From Bombyx mori (taxonomy: Eukaryota; Arthropoda; Insecta; Lepidoptera; Bombycidae), in contig NC_085130.1 in assembly GCF_030269925.1 (NCBI RefSeq), positions 3,856,501 to 3,920,500 of the forward strand: 64,000 nt of DNA, read 5' to 3'. The notes beneath the pieces were generated by a model. It searched no databases, was not told the DNA's origin, and saw nothing but the letters and a program-made list of their open reading frames with translations. The position numbers and the translations under genes are program-made. Shown here in pieces: positions 18,001 through 25,938 of the stretch; position 1 is the first letter of the stretch; every line of letters starts with the position of its first letter.

Positions 18001-21000
18001 GTTCGTACGAAAAAGGTGGTCAAAGCAGTAAGGGAAAGAATTCGAAGAAATCCTGTCTGAAAGCAAAAGATTTTACCTCGGGAGATGAAGATAGCACCTA
18101 GAACCATGTCGCGTATTTTAAAAGATGACTTAGGACTTGCAGCCTATAAGAGACGTACTGGTCATTTCTTAACTGATGATTTAAAAGAGAATAGGGTGGT
18201 AAAATCGAAACAACTACTGAAGCGGTACGCAAAGGGAGGTCATAGAAAAATTTTGTTTACGGATGAGAAATTTTTTACAATTGAGCAACATTTTAACAAA
18301 CAAAATGACCGTATTTATGTTCAAAGCTCTAAGGAAGCTTCCCAATTAGTCGACGGAGTGCAACGTGGGCACTATCCGACTTCAGTGATGGTTTGATGGG
18401 GTATTAGCTATGAAGGAGTGACTAAACATACTTTTGTAAAAAAGGTATCAAAACATCGGCACAAGTGTATCAAGATACCATTCTTGAGAAGGTAGTGAAG
18501 TTCCTTAACAACACCATGTTCAATAATCAAGAATTGTCCTTCCAGCTAGACTCGGCGCCAGATCATAAAGCTCGATCTACGCAGTCTTCGTTGGAAACGA
18601 ACGTTTCGGACTTCATCAGAGCTGAAGACTGGCCGTCGTCCAGTCCCGATCTTAATCCGCTGGATTATGATTTATGGTCAGTTTTAGAGAGTACGGCTTG
18701 CTCTAAACGCCATGATAATTTGGAGTCCCTAAAGCAATCCGTACGATTGGCAGTGAAAATTTTTCTCATGGAGAGAGTGCGTGCTTCTATTGATAACTGG
18801 CCTCAACGTTTAAAGGACTGTATTGCAGCCAATAGAGACCACTTCGAATAAGCTTTTTATACTTTAAATTGTTTTATATTTATGTATTAAACTAACACAC
18901 TGTAAAAGTACTAAATGTTATTTGCCATAAAAAAAAAAATTGTTTTCCTTTGTAACAGTATTTATGGCCAGACTAAGTATTTTAGTATTATTGGGAGAAT
19001 TCCCGGAAACTATATTTAATTTTACTACATACTTAACCTGTATTTTTTATTTTTTTTAAATTGAAAACTGAAAATATATTTTTCAGCGGCCCTCAAACTT
19101 TTGTAATAAATTGAATTAGCCCGCAAACGTACGTAGTTTGCGACCGCCCTAATGAATTAAATGGAACACCCCGTATACAATTAAAATATTTAAAAATGGA
19201 AGACTCCGAACACCCAAATACACCGTGATCAAGTTCACGTTTGAACCCTATAGAAACAACATAAGACTCACCCTCCAATGCGTAAATGGGGGGTTGATCG
19301 GGTCCTAATTTATAAGCTATCGTCGTGATCAGACCGTGGGTCGAATTGACCCGTCTGGTTCCGGTGTTGTACAGCAGAAAGCACCCGCTGCGGTAAGTGT
19401 TCTTCGCTTGGCCGGCGCTCAAGCAGTTCTGACCCACGAGCGCAGATTGCTGGTTACCTAAAATCTAAAACGAGAGTAAAGGGTCTAGTAGCAGTAAGTT
19501 ATGGTATCCGTTTGTTTTTATAGCGTATATGGGTGGACGAAATCATAGCCCACCTGGTGTTAAGTGGTTACCGAAGCCCATAGACATTTACCACGTAAAT
19601 GCGTCACCCACCTTGACATATGAGTTCTAAGGTCTCAGTATAGTTACAACGGCTGTCCCGCCCTTCAAACCGAAACGCATTACTGCTTCGCGGCAGAAAT
19701 AGGCAGGGTGGTGGTACCTACCCGCGCGGACTCACAATACGTCCTACCACCAGCTAAATATACGTGTATTTTTATTAGTAACTTTCGGACATTTCATGAA
19801 CTCACACAGATTAGCGTATCCTACTGTCTATTGCTGCCAACGGGTAAGAACAATTAGTTATCAAAAAGATTTAATCTGTTAGTGATAAACGAAAACACAA
19901 CTTGAATCACCTTTCACAAATACAGTAGTTTACTGGTGGTAGGACCTCTTGTGAGTCCGCACGGGTAGGTACCACCACCCCGCCTATTTCTGCCGTGAAG
20001 CAGTAATGCGTTTCGGTTCGAAGGGTGTGGCAGCCGTTGTAACTATACTGAGATCTTAGAACTCATATCTCAAGGTGGGTGGCAGCATTTACGTTGTAGA
20101 TGTCTATGGGCTCCGCTAACCACTCAATACCAGGAGGAATGTGACCTCGTCCACTGATCTAAGCAATAAAAAATATAGATAACGCAATATGTCAAGCCAT
20201 GACGTCATTCATAGCCTAATTAAAAAAAATTACTTTATTTAAAACTACAAAGTGATTGGACGTTCTCGCATAAAGCCGACCAAGCAATACAATAATAATA
20301 TCGTTTATTTGTAATATCGCGTCTTTATTTAAACCGATATTAATGTATACATTTCTCCGAATACTTTAAATCTATAGATTTAGTAAACACAATTAATTGG
20401 TTTTAATTAAACAGTATAGGTACTCTTGTATATGTATTTAGGATGGACGATATTCAATAGATAACTAAAGGCGTTGAGTCTCAGTGGCGTAGCGAGGGGG
20501 GGCCAAAAGGGGACATCATGCCCCGGGCGCTACTCACAAAGGGGGGGGCCAACCGCCAAACGGTCAAAACAAAAAAAATACTGGATAACTTTTATTTTTA
20601 TTACAATTGGTTTCTGGATTTTTTTTAATAATTGATGTCTTTTGAATTAATTATAGATGATCATATTACACATTTTAGAATCTAGCCTTGTTTTCTCAAC
20701 TACATTTTTCGTTCCTAATTGAAACCCTGGCTTGAGCCTATGACTTTATTTATTTTACTTTATTTATTTTTTAATTTGCGAGTATATTTTCGAATTGGCT
20801 AAAGAGGTATTGAGCGCCAGTTAAGATCGTTACGTCACTGTTCAGTCTTCATTCTCATGTCTGGAGGCAGTAGGTAGACACCCGGTCACGACATTTACAG
20901 CCTCAAACACATCCTCGTGTGGAGTCTGCGAATAACGAAAATACAAAAAAATCTATATTTACCCCTGAAATGGATATGCCGTCGAGAACGGAGCCGTCTC

Positions 21001-25938: not shown

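Follow-up and report, generated by a model that had tools for sequence, protein, structure and literature searches.

A conserved insect paralogue of glycerol kinase, probably a pseudoenzyme, in the silkworm Bombyx mori

Can a gene that retains the fold of glycerol kinase (GK) but has replaced the residues of its catalytic site still encode a kinase, and if not, for what would it be kept? The question is raised by a locus in a 64,000-nucleotide stretch of the silkworm (Bombyx mori) genome (contig NC_085130.1, positions 3,856,501 to 3,920,500; "the window"), where a GK gene of 13 exons runs on the minus strand from window position 25938 to 5922. A sequence-only reading had proposed that it encodes a pseudoenzyme, and the comparisons below support this: all 163 listed relatives have Asn at the site of the catalytic Asp, and none of the 162 that can be scored has Gly at position 429. 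The protein is very probably unable to transfer phosphate from ATP to glycerol, and we consider it probable, on the pattern of conservation, that it is a conserved pseudoenzyme kept for a non-catalytic job as an adapter or regulator.

In GK (GlpK/GK of the FGGY family, EC 2.7.1.30), two glycine motifs, the GTG of the phosphate loop and the DGG of the adenosine site, serve ATP binding, and Asp245 of the E. coli enzyme doubles as the catalytic base. The silkworm protein has FGGY_N and FGGY_C domains and a predicted GK fold, and it differs at all three sites: Asp has become Asn, GTG has become RSG and DGG has become DGK. The claimed Asn260 is indeed read from an AAC codon in the window, agrees with two database sequences (P0001 and P0024) and aligns with E. 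coli Asp245 (246 counting Met). The YRSG and VDGK reported in place of YGTG and VDGG are both present as well, Arg281-Ser282 aligning with the Gly-Thr of YGTG and Lys429 with the second Gly of DGG. Arg83, Glu84, Tyr135 and Asp245 of E. coli GK hydrogen-bond glycerol, and Phe270 packs on it (PMC3245297). Four of these five residues are retained in the silkworm protein and the Asp245 equivalent is lost.

Elsewhere in the silkworm genome, on C1 and C10, lie at least two more GK loci, which carry the Asp, YGTG or FGTG, and DGG (active-type, as opposed to the dead-type gene of the window); the genome search scored best candidates only, so that two is a lower bound. Each of three protein searches scored about 8,000 candidates (7,998, 7,997 and 7,998) and listed the best 120. 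Two of them listed 163 different relatives of the dead-type protein, and the third, with the C1 and C10 GKs, listed 120; these sets were chosen by similarity to the query and include isoforms as well as gene models that are partial or fused, and intermediates could be missed. The named dead-type relatives belong to Lepidoptera, Diptera, Coleoptera, Hymenoptera, Neuroptera, Siphonaptera, Hemiptera (Laodelphax) and Blattodea (Zootermopsis), the first set containing a single named member of each of the last two.

Orthologues with Asp at position 260 were sought and none was found among the listed relatives, all 163 of which have Asn. Arg281, and with it the R-x-G pattern at the position of the phosphate-loop GTG, is likewise present in 163/163, and Gly is found at position 429 in 0/162 (Lys or Arg in 126/162). 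The glycerol-binding residues are retained: Arg93, Glu94, Trp113 and Phe285 in 163/163 each and Tyr148 in 159/163; the sequence-only reading had named the Arg-Glu pair and Tyr148. In the active-type set, the 119 scorable rows all have Asp and GTG, with Gly (109), Ala (9) or Ser (1) at position 429. Because Ala and Ser occur there in active-type rows, position 429 is a softer marker than 260 and 281. A further supposed lesion, DDGT in the N-terminal loop, is there in the sequence but was discarded as a marker: 116/120 active-type insect GKs have DEGT in its place. The next residue is more telling, changing from Ser to Lys or Arg in 130/163 dead-type relatives versus 0/120 active-type proteins.

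The positive charge gathered at the nucleotide-phosphate site (Lys or Arg at 20 and 429, Arg281), together with the retained glycerol contacts, would allow the protein to be a ligand switch, a product sensor that holds an anion such as glycerol-3-phosphate (G3P). We regard this as unlikely. Arg281 alone is found throughout the sample; position 20 also reads Asn, Ser or Gly and position 429 Ile, Val, Asn, Pro and others, for example in some flies and mosquitoes, and Arg281 may merely pair with the retained Asp16 and so fill the site.

How far do the changes extend beyond the active site? Of 493 comparable columns, five (34, 257, 260, 281 and 455) are fixed differently between the two sets at 95%. 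Five columns are common to active insect, human and E. coli GKs and kept in under 10% of the dead-type clade (260, 281, 282, 429 and 455), the first four being motifs already flagged. Of the positions that never vary in the active-type set, 104 agree with human and E. coli GK, and 82 of these are kept at 97% or more in the dead-type clade. As aligned, the clade-marking changes cluster at the catalytic and ATP site, with columns 34 (to Glu) and 257 as exceptions. Column 34 lies outside the motifs, and its gain of Glu in 98% of the clade could be taken as a sign of an enzyme that uses an alternative base, donor or substrate. The conserved fold and glycerol contacts and the database name "glycerol kinase" point the same way, and the authors of a fall armyworm study regard the relative they call Sf-GK1 as active (PMC8904778). 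Set against this, the catalytic Asp and the phosphate-loop Gly are gone in every listed relative and the adenosine-site Gly in every scorable one, and we consider a surviving enzymatic role quite improbable.

The signature appears to have a single origin. In a first tree of 25 rows with all columns, the dead-type clade has a Shimodaira-Hasegawa approximate likelihood ratio test (SH-aLRT) value of 100. In a more careful tree, columns 16-23, 260, 280-284 and 428-430 were removed (column 455 was left in) and 20 of the 163 dead-type rows, from eight orders, were used; the Asn/Arg proteins again form one clade (support 100/99.8), whose inner groups match insect orders. Opposite it stand the active-type insect GKs, weakly supported (80/80) as a group. 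The dead-type clade groups with insect GKs to the exclusion of human GK (88/84), that one human row being the only near outgroup and no GK2/Gykl1 row being included. The clade may nevertheless predate the insects, since non-insects were represented by a single human and a single E. coli row. We propose that a GK paralogue would have lost catalysis once, ahead of the divergence of the sampled insect orders, and that the dead paralogue would have been retained under strong constraint alongside active-type GKs.

Constraint can be judged from GK-domain identity to Bombyx, given here as dead-type/C1. The values are 89.5/89.5 for Manduca, 89.5/88.1 for Helicoverpa, 83.7/86.9 for Galleria, 82.1/86.8 for Plutella (C1 partial), 89.3/81.7 for Bicyclus, 83.7/84.9 for Amyelois, 64.5/68.8 for Bradysia and 63.3/70.1 for sand flies. 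Dead-type identity is thus within 3.5 points of C1, or higher, in 5/6 moth or butterfly pairs, below C1 by 4.3 and 6.8 points in 2/2 fly pairs, and above C10 in all four pairs in which C10 was compared. By this measure the dead-type GK domain appears constrained like that of the active-type enzyme, somewhat more weakly toward flies. The coexistence of dead-type and active-type paralogues in one genome also raises the possibility of a regulatory subunit that forms mixed dimers with active GK and tunes it, either as an activator loaded with glycerol or by a dominant negative effect. GKs dimerise (PMC12853182), and the GK fold is predicted for the silkworm protein. With only 50.0 and 56.5% identity to the silkworm active-type proteins, mixed dimers are not a given, and we hold this to be rather unlikely.

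The gene model, built by tblastn and inspection of splice sites in the window, leaves little room for decay. On the minus strand, twelve coding exons from 25930 to 11101, bounded by GT donors and AG acceptors, give a stop-free protein of 699 amino acids (aa). When exon 13 (6025-5922) is joined instead from a GT donor within exon 12 (after 11631), a 557-aa form results that resembles the Bombyx mori database protein P0024. The count of 13 exons in the sequence-only reading stands; its interval, 19272-25938, does not, as it holds exons 1-7 only and the Lys429 codon lies outside it, at 15726 (Table 1). P0001, taken as Bombyx because it is one residue apart from the window protein, is the long form, a 705-aa unbroken frame on a 3,580-base contig. 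As the coding part spans about 15 kb of genomic DNA, P0001 represents a spliced transcript, and judged from this spliced frame the silkworm gene is expressed. The acceptor AG that precedes 25938 and the start of P0001 (MSAEPEM) make an extra exon upstream of exon 1 likely; a pattern search of the window gave no candidate for this first exon (MSA...).

The window protein differs from P0024 at 3 residues and from P0001 at 1 (residues 1-523), and all of these differences fall outside the sites discussed; in its tail P0024 has Met where the window gene has Ile. Agreement of both with the window at all key sites makes a sequencing error there unlikely. A mutation, polymorphism or error peculiar to the silkworm was rejected on this agreement and on the 163/163 listed relatives. 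A decaying pseudogene, an assembly error or a strain variant, given the full open frame, the consensus splice sites, the spliced transcript and identical key residues across many orders, has a negligible probability.

Table 1. Exons of the silkworm dead-type GK gene (window positions)
Feature	Position	Strand	Remarks
Exon 1	25856..25938	-	Coding sequence from ATG at 25930; phosphate loop DDGTKT, DDGT from 25885
Exon 2	24475..24631	-	
Exon 3	23949..24050	-	Glycerol-binding NQRE (Arg93, Glu94), NQRE from 24012
Exon 4	22548..22765	-	Trp113; Tyr148 (TAC 22658)
Exon 5	21401..21510	-	
Exon 6	20963..21068	-	
Exon 7	19272..19464	-	Asn260 (AAC 19455-19453) replacing catalytic Asp; in the same exon, Arg281 (CGC 19392-19390) and Ser282 (AGC 19389-19387) replacing Gly-Thr
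Exon 8	17188..17365	-	
Exon 9	16295..16375	-	
Exon 10	15666..15790	-	Lys429 (AAG 15726-15724) replacing second Gly of DGG
Exon 11	14349..14486	-	Asp455; Glu in active GKs
Exon 12, long form	11101..11717	-	End of GK domain and C-terminal extension of about 176 aa instead of hydrophobic tail
Exon 12, short form	11631..11717	-	Internal GT donor to exon 13
Exon 13	5922..6025	-	Hydrophobic C-terminal tail ([29 protein letters not shown]); 557-aa form like P0024

Repeats lie within the introns of the gene. Intron 7, between exons 7 and 8, contains transposase fragments with a broken frame at about 17810-18850 (plus strand), which by eye look Tc1/mariner-like. Several intron copies of a repeat resembling a short interspersed element, presumably of Bm1 type, were seen by eye, e.g., at about 19937-20170, 21110-21345 and 11790-12010. 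Elsewhere in the window, a 400-aa open frame at 49-1251 (minus strand) has an N-terminus that looks F-box-like by eye. An exact 300-base repeat occurs at 43380-43679 and 45823-46122, a spacing of 2,443 bases at which weak tblastn matches also recur; the pair points to a recent tandem duplication or to a duplicate introduced by the assembly.

The two C-termini of the silkworm protein have counterparts among its relatives. Of the 163 listed proteins, 122 have 660 aa or fewer; the hydrophobic-tail motif is present in 113 of these, and a hydropathy cut-off of 1.6 is passed by 103. The long forms number 41, made up of 34 named lepidopteran proteins and 7 contigs including P0001. Core patterns of the long tail (ILDD in 40/41, IExDPEIIF in 35/41) occur in none of the 122 shorter forms, and the 176-aa tail has no Pfam match at an E value of 1 or less. 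In the proteins compared, Lepidoptera splice additionally to an acidic tail, while most short forms retain the hydrophobic one.

What might such a protein do? Since the gene occurs in many orders, silkworm diapause is not the reason for the family's existence. With the glycerol contacts retained, the pocket may still close on glycerol or a related polyol; for the silkworm protein we see this as evenly balanced. The lepidopteran switch to the acidic tail would free the protein from the membrane, a possibility to which we give slightly less than even weight. By analogy with mouse Gykl1/Gk2 (PMC5566117), the job is plausibly that of a binding protein, adapter or regulator on mitochondria. These mammalian testis paralogues of GK are reported to lack detectable GK activity in vitro, carry a C-terminal mitochondrial targeting sequence and are proposed adapters (PMC5566117), and GK2 is reported with VDAC-binding partners (PMC8017931); the insect hydrophobic tail would be a candidate counterpart of their targeting sequence, and binding of Pld6 or VDAC would be expected of a member of their group. 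They differ from the insect protein in two respects: the changed site named for them is Asp17, whereas the Asp245 site is changed in the silkworm; and they are described as testis-restricted intronless retroposons, whereas the insect gene is split into 13 exons and falls with other insect GKs in the tree. A fuller scheme would make the protein a mitochondrial glycerol/G3P sensor with a frozen pocket, in which the invariant Arg in the ATP-phosphate site reads the phosphate of G3P, the tail anchor links the outer membrane (VDAC, the G3P shuttle) to the state of the polyol pool, Lepidoptera switch by splicing to a new acidic, cysteine-bearing tail, and mammalian sperm GK2/Gykl1 is an independent second invention of a membrane-anchored GK without catalysis; taken jointly, these claims are improbable.

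Functional data come from the fall armyworm, where Sf-GK1 is an apparent orthologue of the dead-type gene. The residues given for it (Arg99, Glu100, Phe155 and Asn266; PMC8904778) are numbered as in the silkworm dead-type protein plus 6, an offset that the six additional residues of Helicoverpa P0007 would predict, and those of Sf-GK2 (Arg92, Glu93, Phe148 and Asp258) follow the numbering of the C10 protein. The paper counts Asn266 as glycerol-binding and, in the text available, does not describe Sf-GK1 as an inactive protein. After cold, glycerol by high-performance liquid chromatography (HPLC) was 44.07 mM in controls, 40.36 after Sf-GK1 RNA interference (RNAi) and 6.08 after Sf-GK2 RNAi, and cold hardening still reduced mortality in Sf-GK1 knockdown larvae (PMC8904778). 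The HPLC and cold-hardening data fit a dead Sf-GK1.

Several observations weigh against an inactive protein or its proposed role. The orthology of Sf-GK1 rests on residue numbers and not on its sequence, and the Sf-GK1 and Sf-GK2 frames are given as 343 and 332 aa only. The HPLC drop after Sf-GK1 knockdown was small yet significant, a second glycerol measurement put all three knockdowns at 29-35 versus about 73, knockdown was partial (40-80%), and the authors state that both GKs act on G3P (all PMC8904778). A 2025 review treats GK2 as G3P-making (PMC12467085), disputing the inactive mammalian precedent. NCBIfam TIGR01311 scores the dead-type paralogue (P0001, P0024) at 647-649 bits, above its equivalog cut-off of 590 and beside 645 for the active-type C10 paralogue; automatic annotation will therefore name it glycerol kinase. 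Finally, the hydrophobic tail specifies no new job, because active-type GKs carry one too (41/42 C10-like, 26/29 other and 1/49 C1-like rows).

Inactive insect relatives of GK are not a new idea, as only two of five fly GK-related genes (dGyk and dGK) are predicted to be active (PMC3302884). Among other flies, Lucilia and Episyrphus carry a member of the dead-type clade. No description of this clade, and no residue-level or insect-wide account of the remaining Drosophila genes, was found in the literature searched, where most subscription papers fell outside coverage. Added here are the multi-order clade, its fixed signature, its constraint and the splice switch.

These results suggest that insect proteins labelled "glycerol kinase" include one that is probably unable to make or consume G3P, and that at least one cold-hardiness RNAi study includes such a probably inactive protein. 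With clade-marking changes almost confined to the catalytic and ATP site, the family would offer a natural experiment in enzyme death. Insects use glycerol as a cryoprotectant and G3P in the redox shuttle of flight muscle, and that eight orders have retained a dead-type GK suggests that their use of glycerol and G3P is subject to a layer of regulation not recognised so far.
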